Of a DNA stretch of 64,000 nucleotides, positions 35,759 through 52,286 are shown piece by piece. The position numbers were made by a program, and so were the translations under genes. This stretch comes from Desulfatibacillum alkenivorans DSM 16219. Its GTDB lineage: Bacteria > Desulfobacterota > Desulfobacteria > Desulfobacterales > Desulfatibacillaceae. The notes under the pieces were generated by a model that did no database searches, had not been told where the DNA came from, and saw only the letters and a program-made list of their open reading frames with translations. The stretch is from the NCBI RefSeq assembly GCF_900142135.1, contig NZ_FQZU01000016.1, positions 1 to 64,000 on the forward strand, read 5' to 3'. Every line of letters begins with the position of its first letter. Position 1 is the stretch's first letter.

Positions 35759-37471
35759 ATGAGAATCAGAAAAAGACTGGGCGAGCTACTGGTTGAGGGG
35801 GGGCTTTTAACCGACGAACAACTGAAGGACGCCCTGGCCCAGCACAAAAAGTCCGGCATGAAACTTGGCAAGTTCCTGGTGCAGCGCGGCATCGTGCGGG
35901 AAGACGCCATGATCGACGCGGTGGCCTCCCAGTTGAAAATCGACCGCTACAGGGCTGACAAATACCCGGTGAACGCCGAGTTGACCAATGTCATCCCCAT
36001 GGACATGGCCCAGAGGCATCAGTTGGTCCCCCTCGCCAAAAAGCCCCATCTTTTGACCGTCGGCATGACGGACCCCATGGACATTGAAAGCCTGGACGCC
36101 ATTGAAATTTACACCAACACCGAGGTCGAGGCCGTCATCTGTACGGAACGGGAGCTGACTCAGCTGATTAGCAGCCTTTACGGCTTTTCCTCTTTGGCGG
36201 ACGGCATGGAGGAAGTGCAGGGCCTGGAAATGGGGCCGGAATCCCAGGTCCAGGAAGAGGCTGCGGATACGGAAATCGAAGTGCAGTCCCTGGCCGGCAT
36301 GGTGGATGAAGCCCCGGTCGTCAGACTGGTGAACTCCATCCTGTCCCAGGCCATCCGGGAAGGCGCCTCGGACGTGCACATAGGTCCCGAGAAAACTTAC
36401 GCCCACGTCCGGTTCCGCATTGACGGAAAGCTGCACGAGGTGCCTGCGCCGCCCAAATCCCTGCTCATGCCGGTGATTTCGCGCATCAAAATTCTCAGCA
36501 ACATGGACATTGCAACCACCCGAATTCCCCAGGACGGCAGGTTCACCCTGAAAATGGAAAGCCGTGAGATCAATGTCCGCGCTTCCACCGTGCCCACCAT
36601 CTACGGAGAAAACCTGGTGCTCAGGCTTCTGGACATGAGCAGCGGCATCTATTCCCTGCACGAGTTGGGCATGAACAAGGACGACCGCGCCAAGATCGAG
36701 AGCGTCATCGTCAAGCCTTATGGGATGATTCTTTCCACCGGCCCCACGGGCAGCGGTAAGAGTACAAGCCTTTACGCCATTCTTCAGGCGTTGAACAAGC
36801 CGGACATCAATATCATCACCGTGGAAGACCCGGTGGAATACCGCCTGGAAAAAATCAAGCAGATCCAGCTGAACCGCAAGGCGGGCATGACCTTCGCCAG
36901 CGGTTTGCGGGCCATCCTGCGCCAGGACCCGGACGTCATCATGGTCGGCGAAATCCGGGACGGCGAAACCGCCTCCATCGCGGTCCAGGCCGCCCTCACC
37001 GGCCACAGGGTGTTGTCCACCCTGCACACCAACGATTCGGCCGGCGCCGTCACCCGTTTGGTGGACATGGGCATCGAGCCCTTTCTGGTCTCCTCGGTGC
37101 TGCTGGTCTCATTCGCCCAGCGCCTGGTGCGCACCGTGTGCACGGGCTGCCAGGAGAGCTATATCCCCGCTGACGAAAGTCTGGCCGCATGGGGCCTCAG
37201 CCGGGCGGACGTGGCCGGAGTGGACTTCAAAAGGGGCAAGGGCTGCGCCATGTGCATGCAAACCGGGTACAAGGGCAGAACCGGCATTTTCGAGGTTTTG
37301 AAAAACGACGACACCATTCAGGATTTGATTTCCAGGCGGGATTCGTCCCAGGAGATCGCCCGGTCGGCCAGGGCGGCGGGCAAGATGCGCTTTTTGAGGG
37401 AAGACGCCCTGGACAAGGTGTTCGCCGGAAGGACCACCCTGGAAGAGGCAGCCTCTGCAGTCATGACTTAG
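35759..37471 (+). CDS. mshE: MshE/PilB-type pilus extension ATPase
   Basis: This hexameric ATPase powers pilus assembly. The 570-residue product starts with an MshEN-type domain (about 1-150; RKRLGELLVEGGLLTDEQL), which in MshE binds cyclic di-GMP. The T2SSE core follows: Walker A STGPTGSGKSTS near residues 326-337, an Asp box with VEDPVEYRLE near 357-366, Walker B RQDPDVIMVGEIRDGET near 389-405, and a His box GHRVLSTLHTND near 419-430. The zinc-binding Cys pairs are CTGC near 462-465 and CAMC near 497-500. It starts one base after the stop of mshM. A PilT retraction ATPase is not found in the window. Confidence 0.93.
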   Translation: MRIRKRLGELLVEGGLLTDEQLKDALAQHKKSGMKLGKFLVQRGIVREDAMIDAVASQLKIDRYRADKYPVNAELTNVIPMDMAQRHQLVPLAKKPHLLTVGMTDPMDIESLDAIEIYTNTEVEAVICTERELTQLISSLYGFSSLADGMEEVQGLEMGPESQVQEEAADTEIEVQSLAGMVDEAPVVRLVNSILSQAIREGASDVHIGPEKTYAHVRFRIDGKLHEVPAPPKSLLMPVISRIKILSNMDIATTRIPQDGRFTLKMESREINVRASTVPTIYGENLVLRLLDMSSGIYSLHELGMNKDDRAKIESVIVKPYGMILSTGPTGSGKSTSLYAILQALNKPDINIITVEDPVEYRLEKIKQIQLNRKAGMTFASGLRAILRQDPDVIMVGEIRDGETASIAVQAALTGHRVLSTLHTNDSAGAVTRLVDMGIEPFLVSSVLLVSFAQRLVRTVCTGCQESYIPADESLAAWGLSRADVAGVDFKRGKGCAMCMQTGYKGRTGIFEVLKNDDTIQDLISRRDSSQEIARSARAAGKMRFLREDALDKVFAGRTTLEEAASAVMT

Positions 37472-37493
37472 GAACAGGACGACAGGAAGCATC

Positions 37494-38714
37494 ATGGCGA
37501 CATACAACTACACGGCGATGAATGAAGTGGGAACCAAGGTGTCAGGCACGCTGGAGGCGGAGACCTCCGACGGCGCCCGGCAGATTTTAAGCTCTCGCGG
37601 CTTTATACCCACCAAAGTCACCAAAGTCCGTGGAGAGGAAAAAGCTGAAAAGGAAGGCCTGGGCAACAGAATGGGCCGGGTGGGGGCCAGGGATATTATC
37701 CTCTTCACCAAGCAATTCGCCACCATGCTGAGGGCGGGCATTCCCATCATTGATCTTTTTCAGGTTGCGGAGTCGCAAACCGAAAATCCCAAGCTAAAAA
37801 GGGTTATCGCGCAGATTTCCAAGGATATCCAGGAGGGCGCCAGCCTTCATCAGGCCATGAAAAAGCATCCCTCCGTGTTTTCCCCCTTATATTTAAGCAT
37901 GATGCGCGCCGGCGAAACCAGCGGGGCTCTGCCCCAGGTTTTGGAACGCCTGATATACATCATCGACCATGAGGAAAAGGTTAAGAAGGACATCAAGGGC
38001 GCCATGATTTATCCGGCGCTGGTCACAATCGTCCTGACTGGAGCTTTTTTCTTTTTGGAAATTAAGGTGGTGCCGGTTTTTGCGAAAATTTTTTCAAGAG
38101 CGCAGTTGGAGCTTCCACTCCCGACGAAAATTTGCATCGGCATCTACTCGTTTTTAAGCGCCTATTGGGTTTATCTGGTGCTTGCCGCCGTCGCTTTGGC
38201 CGTTTTTCTGTTTTTCTATTTGAGAACCGAGCAGGGAAAATACACATTTAACAGCATTTTGTTGAATATACCCATATTCGGAGACCTGCTCACAAAAGCG
38301 GCCATGTCCCGGTTTGCGAGCATCTTCGCTATATTGCAGTCCAGCGGCGTGACGGTGTTGGACTCCTTTACCATTTTGTCGGGAACCATAGGCAGCGCAG
38401 CTATGTCCCGGCAATTTGACGGCATCCGGCAACGGTTGGAGCAAGGGAGAGGCATTTCAGAGCCGCTCAGGGAGGCGAAATTTTTTACTCCCATGGTCAT
38501 TAATATGGTGGCCATAGGCGAGGAGTCCGGAAACCTGGAGGAGATGCTTCAGGTTATTTCAGACCACTATGACGACGAAGTGGAGTACGCCGTAAATGCG
38601 CTTTCAGAGGCCATTGTGCCCATCTTAACGATAGCATTGGCGGCGGTTGTCGGCTTCTTCGCCCTGGCGATATTCCTCCCCATGTGGGACATGACCAAGA
38701 TGGTCAAGAAATAG
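37494..38714 (+). CDS. mshG: MshG/PilC-type inner-membrane platform protein
   Basis: The 406-residue product has the GspF/PilC layout: an N-terminal TYNYTAMNEVGTKVSG segment, two repeated GspF domains near 70-190 and 270-395, and three membrane helices near 170-190, 220-240 and 372-395. The motifs FTKQFATMLRAGIPIIDL and RFASIFAILQSSGVTVLDS mark the two domain starts. It interacts with the extension ATPase below it and the pilus base. It starts 22 bases after mshE; the operon seems to end here. Confidence 0.93.
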   Translation: MATYNYTAMNEVGTKVSGTLEAETSDGARQILSSRGFIPTKVTKVRGEEKAEKEGLGNRMGRVGARDIILFTKQFATMLRAGIPIIDLFQVAESQTENPKLKRVIAQISKDIQEGASLHQAMKKHPSVFSPLYLSMMRAGETSGALPQVLERLIYIIDHEEKVKKDIKGAMIYPALVTIVLTGAFFFLEIKVVPVFAKIFSRAQLELPLPTKICIGIYSFLSAYWVYLVLAAVALAVFLFFYLRTEQGKYTFNSILLNIPIFGDLLTKAAMSRFASIFAILQSSGVTVLDSFTILSGTIGSAAMSRQFDGIRQRLEQGRGISEPLREAKFFTPMVINMVAIGEESGNLEEMLQVISDHYDDEVEYAVNALSEAIVPILTIALAAVVGFFALAIFLPMWDMTKMVKK

Positions 38715-40466: not shown

Positions 40467-40868
40467 ATGTTAGAAAAATGGAAGAATAAGGTCAGAGGTC
40501 AAGAAGGCTTCACCCTCATTGAAATCATCGCGGTTCTGGTCATCCTGGGCATCCTGGCCGCCGTGGCCGTTCCCAAGTACTATGACTTGCAGCAACAGTC
40601 CCTCAACCAGGCCCTGGAAGGCGGAGGCGCGGAAGCCGTTGCTTATGTTAATATGACTTTTGCCCAGGCCATCTTGGGCGGCGCCACGGTTGCTGATACG
40701 CAAGTATCTGGTTTTTATACCAAAGAGCTTGATTTGGGCGACATGACCGTCGATATTGAGGATGATGGGGGGGATCCGACTTATACGGTTTCCGCCGTGA
40801 CTGGCGGCGCTCTTGACGGCGCCGTTGACGTAACAGGCACAATCGACCGTCCCGGCCAGGCGCCGTAG
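40467..40868 (+). CDS. Type IV pilin-like protein (MshA-type candidate major pilin)
   Basis: The 133-residue prepilin has a short basic leader ending in Gly (QEG), cleavage before Phe, and the N-methylation sequence FTLIEIIAVLVILGILAAVAVP with Glu at position 5 of the mature protein. This is the class III/T2SS-like motif cut by prepilin peptidase. The C-terminal globular part is short, contains DIEDDGGDPTYTVSAVTGG and has no cysteines, so it has no disulfide loop. AAAGGAG lies seven bases upstream of the ATG, and a sigma-54 promoter precedes it. A terminator ends the unit. Strong dedicated expression signals suggest it is the major subunit. Confidence 0.88.
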   Translation: MLEKWKNKVRGQEGFTLIEIIAVLVILGILAAVAVPKYYDLQQQSLNQALEGGGAEAVAYVNMTFAQAILGGATVADTQVSGFYTKELDLGDMTVDIEDDGGDPTYTVSAVTGGALDGAVDVTGTIDRPGQAP

Positions 40869-45144: not shown

Positions 45145-45699
45145 ATGGACCAGGAAGAGGAAAGACAGGCCGTTTTGGATGTCAAAGCGGGCGCCGTAGA
45201 TCGCTTCGCCTTCTTGGTGGACGCGCACAAAGGGGCGCTGTTCAACCTGGCTTGGCGCATGACCGGCAGCCGCTCCGACGCCGAAGACCTTGTTCAGGAA
45301 ATATTTGTGCGGGCTTTTCGCAATCTTGGATCCTTTGACTCTGAAAAGCGTTTTTTCCCATGGTTATACACCATCGGAATCAACCTGATCCGCAGCCGTC
45401 TTAAATCTGTTTCCAAGAGGCGCCGGGTTTTGCAGGACCAGGAAAAGGAAGGGTCGCAAGAAGCCAGCCCCGAGGACGCCTTTTTGGAAAAGGAAAGGGC
45501 CGACCAGGTGCAGGCCGCTTTGCTGAAATTAAACACGGGGCAGCGCGAAGCCTTGCTTTTACGCTATTCTCAAGGCCTGACATATGATGAGATTGCGGTT
45601 ATTTTACGCATCTCCAACAGCGCTGCAAAAATGCGGGCGGCCCGAGGGCTGGACCGCTTGCGTTCCATTTTACCGGAAACCTTGTTGGACAAAGGCTGA
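45145..45699 (+). CDS. ECF-type RNA polymerase sigma factor
   Basis: The 184-residue protein has sigma region 2 (SRSDAEDLVQEIFVRAFRNLGSF, about residues 32-54) and region 4 (REALLLRYSQGLTYDEIAVIL, about 132-153), separated by a basic linker, and no region 1 or 3. This is the ECF layout. It is followed after two bases by a small membrane protein that may act as its anti-sigma factor, and then by minor pilin genes, so it may control the second pilus transcription unit. I could not identify a clear ECF-type -35/-10 pair upstream. Confidence 0.88.
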   Translation: MDQEEERQAVLDVKAGAVDRFAFLVDAHKGALFNLAWRMTGSRSDAEDLVQEIFVRAFRNLGSFDSEKRFFPWLYTIGINLIRSRLKSVSKRRRVLQDQEKEGSQEASPEDAFLEKERADQVQAALLKLNTGQREALLLRYSQGLTYDEIAVILRISNSAAKMRAARGLDRLRSILPETLLDKG

Positions 45700-45701
45700 T
45701 C

Positions 45702-46211
45702 ATGAAACCGAAGGACGAAACGATAAAGCAATGGATTAAAGACCTTAAACAAGAGGATCCGCCGGAGGACCTGACCCGGCATGTCATGGATCAAATTACG
45801 GCCGGGCCTGTAAATTCCCCTCCGCTGACGCTGGCCTGGGTCTTCTTTGTCACGGGTTTTTTCTTCTTTTGCCTGTTTGCGGTTTTGGCCGCCGGAGTTC
45901 GCTACTGGGCTCTGCAGGGAGTGGGCCTGGAGGGCTTGAATCTGGCCCGCAACGCCTCGTTTATGGTTTCCCTTTTTATGGGGGCGGCCGGGTGCGGTTT
46001 AGTCCGCGGAGGGAGAATCGGAATCAGAACCGCCTATGCAGTGGGCTTGATCACGGGCTCAGGATGCATCCTGTCTTCCGTGGGCCTGTCCTTAAAATTG
46101 GCTGACCTGTCCGCCGCACTTGCTGTTTTGGGATATGGAGCTTGCGGGGCGGCCATTGCTCTTATTTTACTGAAGGAGTTACGGCGTAATGAGTATCACG
46201 GATATCAATAA
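45702..46211 (+). CDS. Small membrane protein, possible anti-sigma factor
   Basis: The 169-residue product has a charged cytoplasmic N terminus (about 1-40, KPKDETIKQWIKDLKQ then PPEDLTRHVMDQI), which resembles the sigma-binding segment of membrane anti-sigma factors, and about four membrane helices after residue 45. There is no zinc-binding HxxxCxxC motif. It starts two bases after the sigma-factor stop and overlaps the next pilin gene by 23 bases, so all are one operon. The anti-sigma role is inferred from neighbourhood and layout only. Confidence 0.6.
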   Translation: MKPKDETIKQWIKDLKQEDPPEDLTRHVMDQITAGPVNSPPLTLAWVFFVTGFFFFCLFAVLAAGVRYWALQGVGLEGLNLARNASFMVSLFMGAAGCGLVRGGRIGIRTAYAVGLITGSGCILSSVGLSLKLADLSAALAVLGYGACGAAIALILLKELRRNEYHGYQ

Positions 46212-46686
46212 GACGGCCCGGACTCCAGGCTCCCAGCATGGATTCACGCTTTTGGAACTGGTGAGCGTCCTGTTGATAATAGGCATTCTCTCTGCAGTGG
46301 TTATCACCCGGGCCAGCATGTCATTGGACGTCACCATGGTGGCCGAGGCGGAGGCGCTCAAGGCTCAACTGCGCTACGCCCAGAGAAGGTCCATGACAGG
46401 CGGCGATCCCTGGGGAATCAATATTAGCGGCAACTCTTACTCCATGTTCTATTATGATGGAACTCGCAACACGGTTTCCATGCCGGGGGCGACCAGTGCT
46501 TCCCGCAATTTAGGCTCGTTAGGGATAAGCGTGACCGGCGCCATTGTCAGTTTTGACTCCTGGGGCAGGCCTTGCACAGGCGACTCAGGAACCTCGCCGC
46601 GCACCAGCGACCTCACCCTGACCGTATCCAAAGGCAGTGTGTCCCGGACAATAACCGTTACAAAAAATACGGGGTTCATACCATGA
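46189..46686 (+). CDS. Minor pilin/pseudopilin, GspH/MshC-type
   Basis: The 165-residue prepilin has a 17-residue leader ending HG, then FTLLELVSVLLIIGILSAVVI with Glu5, the prepilin peptidase motif. The next helix part (AEALKAQLRYAQRRSMTGG) matches the GspH/FimT alpha-helical spine, followed by a beta-rich domain. It overlaps the upstream membrane protein gene and its stop overlaps the next ATG (ATGA). In an MSHA locus this position is that of MshC/MshD minor pilins. Confidence 0.85.
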   Translation: MSITDINKTARTPGSQHGFTLLELVSVLLIIGILSAVVITRASMSLDVTMVAEAEALKAQLRYAQRRSMTGGDPWGINISGNSYSMFYYDGTRNTVSMPGATSASRNLGSLGISVTGAIVSFDSWGRPCTGDSGTSPRTSDLTLTVSKGSVSRTITVTKNTGFIP

Positions 46687-47120
46687 AATGCTTAATCTTT
46701 AAAAATTCCAGCGGCTTTTCTCTCCTGGAGATCATTGTGACGCTGACGGTCGCCGCCGTCCTGGCCACCGTGCTTATTGCATTCACGGGGACCGCAGTCC
46801 AGCGCGCCGGCGAGCCGGCCGCCCGTTTGAGCGACATATACGGCCTGCAGCAGGTCATGGAAAACATCACCGGGTATTACGTGGACGTAGCCCATGGAGA
46901 GGACGCCCTGTCCAGGCTGTACAACGCCATCGAAAGCGAGGACACGGATCCTTCCACCGGTTTCGGCGCTTACAAATCCTCCAAGTCCTGGGTGTATTAC
47001 AATGCCAGCCGCGAGGAAGTCACGTCCAGCGCGCAAACCAGTGACACCATGCTCAAAATCGTTCTGGAGCCTGTGGCCGGAGAATCCACTATCAAACTCA
47101 CGGCCTTTTTTGTGAGATAA
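46683..47120 (+). CDS. Minor pilin/pseudopilin, MshD-like
   Basis: The 145-residue prepilin has a 10-residue leader ending SG, then FSLLEIIVTLTVAAVLATVLI with Glu5. The remaining domain is short (VMENITGYYVDVAHGEDAL, SKSWVYYNASREE) and has no cysteine pair after the leader. ATG 46683 overlaps the stop of the previous pilin by four bases; longer in-frame starts upstream lie inside that gene and would put residues before the leader. It precedes the large fusion protein by 33 bases. Confidence 0.85.
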   Translation: MKCLIFKNSSGFSLLEIIVTLTVAAVLATVLIAFTGTAVQRAGEPAARLSDIYGLQQVMENITGYYVDVAHGEDALSRLYNAIESEDTDPSTGFGAYKSSKSWVYYNASREEVTSSAQTSDTMLKIVLEPVAGESTIKLTAFFVR

Positions 47121-47153: not shown

Positions 47154-50100
47154 ATGAGAAGACATACAAAAAACAGCGGGTTTACTTTGGTTGAAATGAT
47201 CGCCGTTCTGGTGATTGTGGGAGTTCTGGCCGCCGTTGCGGGCATGGGTATCGTCAAAGCCGCGCAAGCCTTTGCGTTCAACAGCGAGGCGACGGCGCTC
47301 TCGCAAAAGGCGGAGCTCGCCATGGACCGCCTGCGCCGGTCTTTGGAAAACCTGACGGACATTTCCTCGGCCACGTCCAGTTCCATCGGCGTTTCGCGTT
47401 TGAGCGGCGAAACCATTGTCACCGAACGCTATTATGTCAGCGGAAGCGACTTGATGCTTACCAGCTCGGAAAGCGGCGCCGGGACCAACACCCTCACGGA
47501 TCTGGTCGACTCTTTCAGCCTGTCCTACAAAATGGCCGACGACTCGGCGTGGAGCTTCGGCTCCAATCTCGAAGACCTCGCACGCATCGAGTTCACCCTC
47601 ACCATGGAAGGCCCAAACGGGACAAGCATGTCCTTCGCCAATTATGTGGTGCCCAGAAATACATATATTCCGGACATCCAAAGGCGCTATTATCCGGCGG
47701 GCTCCACCACAGGTTCCGCCCCGGGATGTTTTGTGGCCACAGCGGCCTTTGGAAGCGATTCCGATTCCCGGGTTTTCGCCTTAACCCAATTCCGGGATCA
47801 ATACCTGACCCAATACAGCCTGGGCCGCTGGTTTTTGGATTTTTACAATGAGAACGGTCCGGGAATGGCCCAAACGCTTCACTCTCATTATTGGCTGAAA
47901 TCCCTGGTGCGGCTGTTGCTTCTCCCTGCGGCGGGATTCGCCTTCCTGGCCATGTACTTTCCCTTGGGGTTTGTTTTAATCGGCGCCATGGCCTGGCTGC
48001 TGTCCCGGTTGGTCATTGCGGCCCGAAACGAGCGCAGGAAAGCGGGCGCGGCCCCTGCAGGCGCCTCGGGCGCGGTGCTTTTAAGCCTGGTGATCGCCAT
48101 GGTGGTCATGGCCGCCATCGGGGCGGGCATGGTATCCATGTACAGCGCCTCCAATACTTCTTCCGCGGCCACCCCCTTTACCGCCAGGGCGCACTATATC
48201 GCCGAATCCGGACTTCGTTACGCCGGCTGGATTCTGGAAGACAACCTGAACGACGACACCTTCATCACGACCGATTTGCACAAAAAAAGTTTTGCCGTGG
48301 ATGACGACTCCTTTTATCTGGAAATCCTTACCTACTGGTACGACATAGGAACCTCCACAACGCCGTCTTCCAACCTCAGCGCTTCCGCTTGGGGCGGGCT
48401 GCCTAAAAAAGTGCTGACAATCCCCGATGACGCCGGAGGATTCCTTACCGTGGAAAAATCCGACGGATCCTCGGAACTGGTCAGGTACAACAGCATAACC
48501 GTTAACGCCGCATCGGACGATATTGGTTTTAGCCTTACTTCAACGCCTTCCGGGACATATAAAAGCCGCGGCCGCATTTTGCCTGCGGCCAAGATTCCAT
48601 CAGCGGGGACCATCCGGGCGGCGAATTTAGGCGATTCATCCGGCGATAGCCTGGAAATCGACCTGGACTCTCTTGCCGGCGAAAACGACACCTTCCTTTT
48701 CCCGAAAATGATGGGCATCATCACCGTGACCGATGCATCAAACAAAGATTGGTACATCATGTACGATTCGGTGGATTATGACAGCGACAAGCTGGTGGGG
48801 ATAAGAAACTGTCCCGGCAGGACGGCGCTGCCCTCCGGAGGGATTACCGTAAATGCAGGGACTCCGGTCCAGTTGGAGCGCTACGCCATGTTCGTCTCCA
48901 CCGGAATCGCCGGCGAGGCGGGGTTTCAAGCGCAAGACACCATCAGTAGAAGTCAGTCCATGGGAACTGTGAGCATGTACCGGGGCGTGGAAGGCGGCAT
49001 AGACTTTAACGATCCCAATGACATCAACAAGGTCGATCCCGTTTTAGGCTCTGCGGCCATTGAAGACGGGGCAATCAAGATTACAGGAACCGAGCAGACT
49101 TATTCTTACACCGAACCCGTTGTTTACCAGCAGGAAAGCCTCATCGCCGTAGACTGGCAGGACGAACTCATCGATACTTTGAACCTGGAGGATATCTGGA
49201 ACAGGTCCTCAAGATTGCTCAGCTACGATCTCCAGGTAAAGGTCAAATTCACCGAAAACCAGGACGACCTGACGCCGCCTTACGTCAATGTGCCCGGAAG
49301 CTACATGCCCGGCCTGTCCTTCAGGACGTATTGCAGCGGGGGACAATGCAACTACTACGGCCTATCCTTTATGCGGGGCGTTCAAGGGAGGACTGAGGTC
49401 TCTTCCGGCGGCGACGGATGCGGCGGCGGCGACTCCACGTATGAAGAGGATGACGACATTGCGGACGGCTTCTTTTCGGAGCATGGGAGCAACACCTCCA
49501 TATCCGTTTGCGGCGACACCTACTCCAGCTGGAACGACTACGCGCCCAAGGACGGCGTCCCCTATCTTATGTTCTGGCAAAAATACCTGGACCCGGACGA
49601 CGACTCGGGCAGCGGGTGCGGGGGAGGAGAAGAGTCTCTCTTTGATTGGATTTCCTACGTGCAATTGGTGGATGTGGAGGAAGTGAGCGTCTACTATTAT
49701 GAGCCGGTTACTTGTTGGGGGGAGTGGAATTGGCATGGTATAATCCTTCGTTTCGACGAATATGATGTAAATTGGGCAGGGGGATGGTACGAAGGAGAAA
49801 TTCCCGGCGACTCGAGGAATTCGCGCCTGTATTTATGCTCTGATAGATGGAGCAGGCAATGGGCGCGCCAGGGCCCCTATACCGCCTGGAAACTTACGGA
49901 CAAGTACGGCTTGTTCCGCACCAGCACCGTGGAAGGCGTCACCGTACTGGGCATCCCGGGCGGCGCCATTGTGCGCAATCCTGCAACGGTCAGCGCAAAT
50001 TCCTCCACGACGGGAAGCCCCGTGCCTAATGTGGCATACATAGTCGATCCCGAATCTGTCAACGATTCGTATCAACAATCCAAGGGCACCAACAACTACC

Positions 50101-50657
50101 GCATCTATCCCAAGGAGTGGGCTACGCTCATGGTGCGGATTATTGAAATGCAGGGGGACTTTGACTGCGACGGCGCGGATGACAACCGGGTTAACGCCGT
50201 GGCCATGTACGCGGCGTCTCCGGACGCCAACGGATCGAATGCCTCATCAGACGATAAGGACGGCAATAGGGTCGCTTATGCAAGAAATTCGCCTGTCAAA
50301 TGGCCCGAGGATTCGGAGTATTTTACGTTGGGCGTCATGGGGTCACGCCATTACACCAGCAAGGAGATTACCGCGCCCAGGGGGTGCGGCGATGATTACG
50401 ACATTGTCAGACTGGCAGGCAGGGGCCAGGACAGCGAAGGCGACTATGTGGTGACCTATTCCGGAACCTTCACTACGGAAGATTACGACTTTACCTCTAA
50501 TGTGGAGGAAGTGGAGTTCGGCCTCCACACATTGGGAATTGACGCAACGGCGGACTCTAACGGAAACCCAACGGAGACCTGTTACTTCGACGATCTGTAC
50601 TGGTCATTCTGGGAGGGCGGAGCCACGGGAGTCATGCCCGGCGTGCAGCAGCAATAA
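47154..50657 (+). CDS. Giant pilin-type fusion protein (MshO-like, MshP-like and long extracellular part)
   Basis: The 1,167-residue ORF holds two prepilin-type segments. The first (residues 1-190) is a GspJ/MshO-like pseudopilin with leader NSG, FTLVEMIAVLVIVGVLA and Glu5. Then come CFVATAAFG at 192-200 (CFI-box), a hydrophobic stretch near 250-290, and a basic loop (RNERRK, 291-296). The second segment starts at Gly306 followed by AVLLSLVIAMVVMAAIGAG, a PilX/MshP/GspK-like start lacking Glu5. About 840 residues of Cys/Gly/Asp-rich and aromatic-rich domain follow, with paired CGGG motifs and beta-rich segments, like the adhesin-like MshQ. No stop interrupts it. In MSHA loci these are usually separate genes. 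Internal prepilin-peptidase cleavage at 306 is possible. Confidence 0.8.
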   Translation: MRRHTKNSGFTLVEMIAVLVIVGVLAAVAGMGIVKAAQAFAFNSEATALSQKAELAMDRLRRSLENLTDISSATSSSIGVSRLSGETIVTERYYVSGSDLMLTSSESGAGTNTLTDLVDSFSLSYKMADDSAWSFGSNLEDLARIEFTLTMEGPNGTSMSFANYVVPRNTYIPDIQRRYYPAGSTTGSAPGCFVATAAFGSDSDSRVFALTQFRDQYLTQYSLGRWFLDFYNENGPGMAQTLHSHYWLKSLVRLLLLPAAGFAFLAMYFPLGFVLIGAMAWLLSRLVIAARNERRKAGAAPAGASGAVLLSLVIAMVVMAAIGAGMVSMYSASNTSSAATPFTARAHYIAESGLRYAGWILEDNLNDDTFITTDLHKKSFAVDDDSFYLEILTYWYDIGTSTTPSSNLSASAWGGLPKKVLTIPDDAGGFLTVEKSDGSSELVRYNSITVNAASDDIGFSLTSTPSGTYKSRGRILPAAKIPSAGTIRAANLGDSSGDSLEIDLDSLAGENDTFLFPKMMGIITVTDASNKDWYIMYDSVDYDSDKLVGIRNCPGRTALPSGGITVNAGTPVQLERYAMFVSTGIAGEAGFQAQDTISRSQSMGTVSMYRGVEGGIDFNDPNDINKVDPVLGSAAIEDGAIKITGTEQTYSYTEPVVYQQESLIAVDWQDELIDTLNLEDIWNRSSRLLSYDLQVKVKFTENQDDLTPPYVNVPGSYMPGLSFRTYCSGGQCNYYGLSFMRGVQGRTEVSSGGDGCGGGDSTYEEDDDIADGFFSEHGSNTSISVCGDTYSSWNDYAPKDGVPYLMFWQKYLDPDDDSGSGCGGGEESLFDWISYVQLVDVEEVSVYYYEPVTCWGEWNWHGIILRFDEYDVNWAGGWYEGEIPGDSRNSRLYLCSDRWSRQWARQGPYTAWKLTDKYGLFRTSTVEGVTVLGIPGGAIVRNPATVSANSSTTGSPVPNVAYIVDPESVNDSYQQSKGTNNYRIYPKEWATLMVRIIEMQGDFDCDGADDNRVNAVAMYAASPDANGSNASSDDKDGNRVAYARNSPVKWPEDSEYFTLGVMGSRHYTSKEITAPRGCGDDYDIVRLAGRGQDSEGDYVVTYSGTFTTEDYDFTSNVEEVEFGLHTLGIDATADSNGNPTETCYFDDLYWSFWEGGATGVMPGVQQQ

Positions 50658-50660
50658 AGA

Positions 50661-51434
50661 GTGAGAGCCGCACCGCTCCTGCTGGAAACGCCTTTGCCGG
50701 ACGGTGCGGCTATTGAAAAACCGCCTCCTGTCATATTAGATTCGCCTGACGAACGTTTTTCGCTTTGCAAACGCGCTGAATGGATTTCGAGAGACCCGGG
50801 GTTGAGCTTGGATTATATCTTGGTTAAAAAACCGCGTTGTTTTTTGGTTTATTATTTATACTGGGTCCCATACACCCTGGTCTACGAAGCTACCAACCGT
50901 TTCCTCTTGTTCCCTCCCATTGAACTTGAATTCACATGGCTGGATGCACATCTGCCTTTTGTTTCCTTTCTTGTGCCCGTTTATGTAAGCTACCTTTTGT
51001 TCGGCTGTCTGATACTGGCGAACTCCAAAGATAACCGGGAGTTGAACGACCTGTTTTACCTGACCCACTTCCAGTTGCTGGTGTGCGCTTTGTTTTTCGT
51101 GTTTTTTCCGGTTTCGTTTCCCAGGCACGAGTATTACGCCGGCTCGGCGTTCACGAAAGCATTCCTTGATTTTTGGCTGTGGTTCGACGCTCCCAACAAT
51201 TGCTTTCCCAGCCTGCATACGGCCAACTGCGCCCTGGCCATTCACTATAGCCTGGGTAAAAAACGGCAGTGGTTGTTTTGCATCTGGGGAGGGTTGATTA
51301 TTGTTTCCACGGTCTTGTGCAAGCAGCATTATATCGTGGATCTGGCGGCCGGGTTATGCGTTTATCTCTTATCCATTCGATTTAAAGAGTGGGTCCTGGA
51401 CCCTTGGAAAAGCGCCGCCGGGGCCGTTGCCTAA
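50661..51434 (+). CDS. PAP2-family membrane phosphatase-like protein
   Basis: The 257-residue product has about six membrane helices. The PAP2 motifs are FPSLHTAN (central motif, His) near residues 180-187 and a C-terminal SxxxxxQHYIVDLAAG-type segment (KQHYIVDLAAG, His) near 220-230; the first KxxxxxRP motif is weak. The family dephosphorylates lipid phosphates such as undecaprenyl pyrophosphate or phosphatidate. A GTG start at 50661 gives the longest product; a later start is possible because the first 50 residues have no family match. It lies three bases after the fusion gene. Confidence 0.75.
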   Translation: MRAAPLLLETPLPDGAAIEKPPPVILDSPDERFSLCKRAEWISRDPGLSLDYILVKKPRCFLVYYLYWVPYTLVYEATNRFLLFPPIELEFTWLDAHLPFVSFLVPVYVSYLLFGCLILANSKDNRELNDLFYLTHFQLLVCALFFVFFPVSFPRHEYYAGSAFTKAFLDFWLWFDAPNNCFPSLHTANCALAIHYSLGKKRQWLFCIWGGLIIVSTVLCKQHYIVDLAAGLCVYLLSIRFKEWVLDPWKSAAGAVA

Positions 51435-51443
51435 GGAGAGGGT

Positions 51444-52286
51444 ATGTATCCCCAGATACACATTGGCACAGGGTATGTCAGTTCCTACAACGTCGCTCTA
51501 TTAACGGCAGTCCTGTGCGGATGGGCCGCCTACGTGCTGGGGGACTACCGCTTGTGGGAGGCGTCCACTCCTTTGGCCAGGGTCAGGAAATTGCTGGGCC
51601 TGTCCCTGGCGTTTTGGGTTGTTGGCTTGCTCTGCCTTCAGGCGACCGTTTATTTCCATTTTATTTTTGACAACATATCCGACAAGGTTTGGGACAAACT
51701 GTCCATGGCGGATATTGTATTCGCCAATCCTTTAAAAACCATCAAAGTGCTTTACGGGCTTATTTTCGCCTTTCCCCTGGGAATTTTTTTGGTCTCCCTG
51801 GTGGACCGGAGCGAACGCTTTTATGACCTGCTGAACAAAAAAACCTTTATCATTTTCCTGGTGCTGGGGTTCGCCAGGGTGGGGTGCTTTTTAAACGGGT
51901 GCTGCTACGGCGTATGTTCCGAAACCTTCGGCGTCCGCTTCCCCATGAATTCCGTGGCGGCCTGGGAGCACCTGAGGCGCGGCCTCACAAAAGGCTTTGT
52001 GGCCCCTCCCTCCCTGCCGGTCATTCCCACACAGGCGATCAGCGCTGTTTTTCTCTTCGCCCTGGCTTTTTTCGCTTTACGCGCCTCCTTAAAAAATAAA
52101 TCCCACGTGTTTTTTCACTATGTTTTTTATTATGCAATATTCCGTTTTTTCATTGAATTTTTAAGGGCCGACATTGACAGGGCATACTACGGCCCGTTAT
52201 CCGCCTCCCAGTGGATTTCCCTTTTTATCTTTCTGCTGTACGGCCTGTGGCGCAGGTTCGGAAGAAAAACTTCATCGACTGTGTAA
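51444..52286 (+). CDS. Prolipoprotein diacylglyceryl transferase-like protein (Lgt family)
   Basis: The 280-residue product has about seven membrane helices and the Lgt core motif GFARVGCFLNGCCYG (about residues 140-154), in the position of the family GxxxGRxGNFxNGExxG sequence. The second family region near IPTQAISAVF and FFIEFLRAD also fits. Differences from canonical Lgt (Cys-rich loop, NGCCYG) place it with the Lgt-like enzymes often seen beside PAP2 or pilus genes, instead of the housekeeping enzyme. It starts 10 bases after the PAP2 gene and ends the cluster. Confidence 0.75.
   Translation: MYPQIHIGTGYVSSYNVALLTAVLCGWAAYVLGDYRLWEASTPLARVRKLLGLSLAFWVVGLLCLQATVYFHFIFDNISDKVWDKLSMADIVFANPLKTIKVLYGLIFAFPLGIFLVSLVDRSERFYDLLNKKTFIIFLVLGFARVGCFLNGCCYGVCSETFGVRFPMNSVAAWEHLRRGLTKGFVAPPSLPVIPTQAISAVFLFALAFFALRASLKNKSHVFFHYVFYYAIFRFFIEFLRADIDRAYYGPLSASQWISLFIFLLYGLWRRFGRKTSSTV

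Follow-up and report, generated by a model that had tools for sequence, protein, structure and literature searches.

Each known precursor of a type IV pilin-like protein holds a single subunit. The closest relatives of the protein described here are GspJ and GspK, which belong as minor pseudopilins to the tip complex of type II secretion systems and type IV pili; known systems encode them in separate genes. GspK proteins are recognized by the lack of Glu5, by their oversized form and by a gene that occupies the 3' end of its cluster, K coming last in the order H-I-J-K (PMC5207764). A second point of reference is the CFI-box-CTERM family (NF041770), in which a Cys-Phe-Ile motif, helices, a hydrophobic helix and a basic tail stand towards the protein's end. 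A Cys motif, a transmembrane helix and an Arg-rich cytoplasmic end also mark MYXO-CTERM and other tripartite C-terminal sorting tags, which belong to a different sequence family; MYXO-CTERM is cut by myxosortase in a Cys-dependent manner (PMC11980579).

We analysed a window of 64,000 nucleotides from Desulfatibacillum alkenivorans DSM 16219 (GCF_900142135.1, NZ_FQZU01000016.1, positions 1 to 64,000, forward strand), in which a GspJ-like and a GspK-like protein share one ORF, joined by a CFI-box/TM spacer. This gene probably encodes a polyprotein that prepilin peptidase cuts at Gly306, although cleavage has not been observed. A first-pass annotation had described an uninterrupted frame of 1,167 amino acids at 47154-50657 with an internal pilin-like start at Gly306, and reading of the sequence confirmed it. 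Its further elements were found as described, namely a hydrophobic stretch at about 246-290, an RNERRK loop at 291-296 and then Gly306 followed by AVLLSLVIAMVVMAAIGAGM without Glu5. What it had not recognized is the CFI-box-CTERM domain between the two pilins. The parts of the protein, all on the + strand, are as follows.

47154..50657, +, fused ORF of 1,167 codons, in which a CFI-box/TM spacer joins a GspJ-like minor pilin to a GspK-like tip pilin
47154..47180, +, first prepilin leader MRRHTKNSG, with a predicted cut after Gly9 and with Glu5 at E14 (PF07963 and TIGR02532)
47181..47672, +, pilin 1 (aa 10-173), predicted GspJ/XcpW/EpsJ fold (AlphaFold model, Foldseek, VIA-align)
47727..47927, +, CFI-box-CTERM domain (aa 192-258) with Cys192 (NF041770, 66-72 bits against a cut-off of 40)
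47889..47957, +, hydrophobic helix 1 (aa 246-268), with a central Pro, borderline as a transmembrane segment
47967..48023, +, hydrophobic helix 2 (aa 272-290), more likely than helix 1 to cross the membrane
48024..48041, +, basic loop RNERRK (aa 291-296), predicted to lie in the cytoplasm; homologs have basic linkers
48069..48071, +, Gly306, predicted internal site for prepilin peptidase, which would cut between Gly306 and Ala307
48072..50654, +, pilin 2 (aa 307-1167), GspK-like, with a pilin helix that lacks Glu5 and with a large beta-rich region
48987..50612, +, jelly-roll (carbohydrate-binding-like) domain in pilin 2, discontinuous (VIA-align)

The fused gene lies in a pilus locus, which also holds an NtrC-type regulator and these genes:

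35759..38714, +, genes for the assembly ATPase and the inner-membrane platform, GspE/GspF-like (sequence, and synteny with homologous loci)
40467..40868, +, major-pilin-like protein (PF07963, TIGR02532)
46189..46686, +, GspH-like minor pilin (PF12019 above cut-off; TIGR01708 51 bits)
46683..47120, +, minor pilin in the GspI position (TIGR02532 above cut-off; order conserved in homologous loci)

Directly upstream of the minor-pilin genes are those of a membrane protein and an ECF sigma factor (45145-46211), and sigma homologs are also found upstream in two homologous loci, L038 and L039.

The first half of the protein begins as a prepilin does (S8-G9/FTLVE, Glu5 present) and scores above both type IV prepilin thresholds (PF07963 27.8, cut-off 21.2; TIGR02532 27, cut-off 16.3). 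From an alignment of fused homologs with 20 rows, AlphaFold2 gave a model (mean pLDDT 63) in which pilin 1 finds EpsJ and XcpW as its best Foldseek matches, and VIA-align places it on EpsJ with a Z of 12.8 over 127 residues and on XcpW with 12.5, the first unrelated row scoring 5.6. As modelled, pilin 1 is thus a GspJ fold. We nevertheless call it GspJ-like because the cut-off of TIGR01711, the GspJ family model, is not reached: it does not match in the window, and two of 20 homologs match it at E<=0.01.

Pilin 2 has the traits of GspK, being devoid of Glu5, larger than its partners and last in the minor-pilin cluster. It is named GspK-like only, since NF037980, the GspK model, scores 11.7 bits on the window, far below its cut-off of 130. 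The jelly-roll of pilin 2 aligns with a GH43 accessory domain at a VIA-align Z of 13.6 in a model with a mean pLDDT of 63, and MAM or choice-of-anchor J models match some pilin 2 homologs; together, these matches make a surface or adhesive role of pilin 2 likely by inference. Solved structures searched with the pilin 2 sequence returned chance matches only, and Foldseek alone was weak. The first-pass annotation had likened the ORF to MshO, MshP and MshQ of the MSHA system, whose pilus cluster has minor pilins and, after them, a large adhesin-like protein. GspJ-like plus GspK-like is the better description of the pair, although we compared no Vibrio sequences.

How might one chain yield both proteins? 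We hold it quite likely, short of any observed cleavage, that the ORF encodes a precursor of two tip subunits. The pilin 1 half, a GspJ-like minor pilin, would place its globular domain in the periplasm. The CFI-box/TM segment would then return the chain to the cytoplasmic side, the basic linker ending at Gly306, and prepilin peptidase would cut after both Gly9 and Gly306. The second of these inferred cuts would give a free N-terminus to a GspK-like tip subunit, which bears the carbohydrate-binding-like domain, and both neighbours in the tip complex, where we infer that they reside, would be obtained in a 1:1 ratio.

The spacer deserves attention in its own right. NF041770 matches the window at 66.2 bits against a cut-off of 40 and matches all of the full fused homologs (20/20), so the identity of the domain is well established. 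In known CFI-box-CTERM proteins the module stands near the end; here it is internal and a complete second prepilin follows. A cut at Gly306 would make the CFI box the C-terminal end of the first product. Cys192 is invariant (20/20 full forms), and fused homologs of a short form keep the Cys, together with Phe or Met and a hydrophobic residue, although most of the module is gone. It is plausible, though unproven, that a further cut or a lipid attachment occurs at Cys192 and frees pilin 1 from its membrane tail. A possible but tentative extension is then a pilin polyprotein matured by two proteases, prepilin peptidase acting after Gly306 and an unknown periplasmic sorting protease at Cys192 (with or without lipid), which would release the CFI-box spacer and two tip subunits in equal number. 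We know of no processing enzyme for the CFI box, and found no description of its processing or of such an enzyme in the open-access literature. CFI-box-CTERM proteins are common across the order, with 46 of 194 genomes above cut-off and up to 10 matches per genome (L112-L141).

Directly downstream of the fused gene lie a PAP2-like phosphatase and a divergent Lgt-like protein (50661-52286). We considered the Lgt-like (51444) and PAP2-like (50661) products as Cys-lipidating partners and rejected them, since the pair is absent beside homologous loci; the sole Lgt-like match there is weak (26 bits, L036). The genome holds two other Lgt-family genes.

The first-pass annotation had also proposed a comparison of split and fused homologs. 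We surveyed 60 relatives and scanned 84,980 species genomes, every locus then being read, and classified 30 fused ORFs, not counting L044 and the cut-off L073. The fusion is therefore not unique to the window. In fact, the identical layout recurs in about 30 homologous ORFs, with a variable linker and a nearly constant Gly, and so is more than chance. Most fused ORFs come from metagenome-assembled Desulfobacterota, but one (L068) is found in a complete isolate genome, Desulfosarcina alkanivorans PL12 (NZ_AP021874.1). An assembly artefact as the origin of the fusion is excluded by this recurrence, complete genome included. In an even draw of the phylum, a single match spans the whole fused profile in 7 of 395 genomes, the window's own among them. 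On the pilin 2 tree, where the window groups with L100 and L034 (support 98/91), the label changes between fused and split at least 10 times, and the fused state is thus old or has arisen repeatedly.

Fused and split homologs also differ in what follows pilin 1. In the split genes, pilin 1 usually ends directly after the pilin domain, without CFI box or membrane segment; in the fused ones, we observe Cys-Phe-Ile, a hydrophobic segment and a linker that is mostly strongly basic. This co-occurrence, in which a membrane-returning segment is present in fused forms and missing from nearly all split ones, lends support to a polyprotein. There are two exceptions among the split loci. In L070, pilin 1 ends in CFI-box-TM-KRRSP and a stop codon that shares bases with the next ATG, while AAAAGGAGG encodes KRR and is at the same time the ribosome-binding site; a prepilin-peptidase cut in the fused forms would replace the stop and start codons of this locus. 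In L076, pilin 1 ends in CFIDSIL-stop and the membrane segment is missing; since this locus groups with the fused L065 and L068, fission occurs too.

Other split loci show variations of their own. In L035 (reverse strand, at the end of the ORF), pilin 1 stops shortly past the CFI motif (CFINSVF-stop), again without a membrane segment. In L045 (reverse strand), the split J and K genes lie about 0.9 kb apart, and the DNA between them holds repeats and an endonuclease-like frame. Joining of the two genes by selenocysteine or read-through was considered for L043 and L050 and rejected: the intergenic repeats carry several stops, and both are thus plain split genes.

Could the second pilin simply be translated from an internal start, the open frame between the pilins being incidental? 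As a signal we required a start codon in the 40 codons that precede the Gly, with a duplex to the anti-ribosome-binding sequence at least as good as -4.5 in energy. Such a signal is present in 3 of 30 fused ORFs, compared with 16 of 23 second genes of split loci (Fisher p 3.6e-5); with L044 included, the fused count is 4 of 31. Thus, 27 of the 30, the window among them, show no such signal near the Gly: the window has four weak candidates before Gly306, the best no better than -3.1, and two fused ORFs (L072, L090) have no ATG, GTG or TTG at all in the last 40 codons. An internal start remains possible in four homologs, as candidates in L056, L082 and L094 and, most strikingly, in L044, where a textbook ribosome-binding site serves an ATG four codons upstream of the second Gly (duplex -12.0) and pilin 1 has an odd start; this locus may stand between the fused and the split state. 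Tight coupling of the split genes, with 4-base overlaps in some, also speaks for translational initiation. However, an internal start would leave the membrane-returning segment of the fused forms unexplained, and we judge it unlikely. The observed lack of internal start signals in most fused ORFs, together with the prepilin peptidase that the genome encodes (a single Peptidase_A24), favours the processed precursor instead.

If a precursor is made, it could also remain uncut and act as a single, two-headed J-K tip subunit. GspJ and GspK are in contact in solved tip complexes (3ci0, 5vtm and 6utu are among the fold hits), and a permanent link is conceivable. Such a protein would have no need for a Gly at -1 of the second pilin, yet 29 of 30 fused ORFs have Gly there, at the point where conservation begins after the variable linker. 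The sole exception is an Ala in L067 (NNNA/NVLVG). Across the alignment of fused and split forms the position of Gly306 is invariant; conservation drops sharply upstream of it, where the linker is unconserved, and the downstream helix is strongly conserved. A conserved -1 Gly ahead of a long hydrophobic helix, our criterion for a prepilin-peptidase substrate, is found in the same 29 ORFs. Pilin 2 branches of about 0.3-1.2 changes per site would, we infer, have been more than long enough for a dispensable Gly to disappear. An uncut chain would moreover hold a second helix without a free pilin N-terminus. What counts against cleavage in the window is its -2 residue, which is Ser, not the Lys or Arg seen in 18 of the 30. 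Altogether, a fusion that stays intact seems improbable to us, and the retention of the Gly site in many old fused lineages, as far as sequence can tell, supports the predicted processing after Gly306.

Topology is the weakest point of this polyprotein reading. The first-pass annotation had supposed that the stretch at 250-290 might span the membrane once: a membrane-returning segment is indeed there, but the single pass is not established, for the model has two helices (246-268 and 272-296, pLDDT about 82) with a short turn between them, which form the CFI-box tail. If both crossed the membrane, Gly306 would be periplasmic. We infer a single pass from the sequences of homologs with one clear segment. 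Each of the eight short-form fused homologs that our script placed has exactly one, and these are interleaved with full forms on the pilin 2 tree. In a rough biological-scale calculation, which uses our own simplified weighting and no published predictor, helix 1 scores worse than helix 2 (means 1.46 vs 0.52), also in generic CFI-box proteins (3.14 vs -0.58, n=20). Basic residues follow helix 2 in most of these generic proteins, and the linkers preceding the Gly are mostly Lys/Arg-rich in the fused homologs. A helix hairpin that leaves Gly306 in the periplasm, with the second pilin helix inverted or not a pilin helix at all, would fit the two modelled helices and their short turn, but it is very hard to reconcile with the single segment of the interleaved short forms, with a basic linker that would violate the positive-inside rule and with relatives that encode the second protein as a separate prepilin-like gene.

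What is new in the processed precursor is thus its architecture; the tip subunits themselves are known. In the open-access literature, we found no description of a pilin polyprotein, and matches for a GspJ/GspK gene fusion were unrelated to a fused precursor. If the reading is true, prepilin peptidase can also process polyproteins, at a site inside the chain. This would matter for the question of how the enzyme recognizes its substrates, and a two-pilin precursor for that of how 1:1 tip complexes are assured. The fused forms also offer a handle on CFI-box-CTERM, in that the Cys-Phe-Ile motif outlasts the shrinkage of its module.
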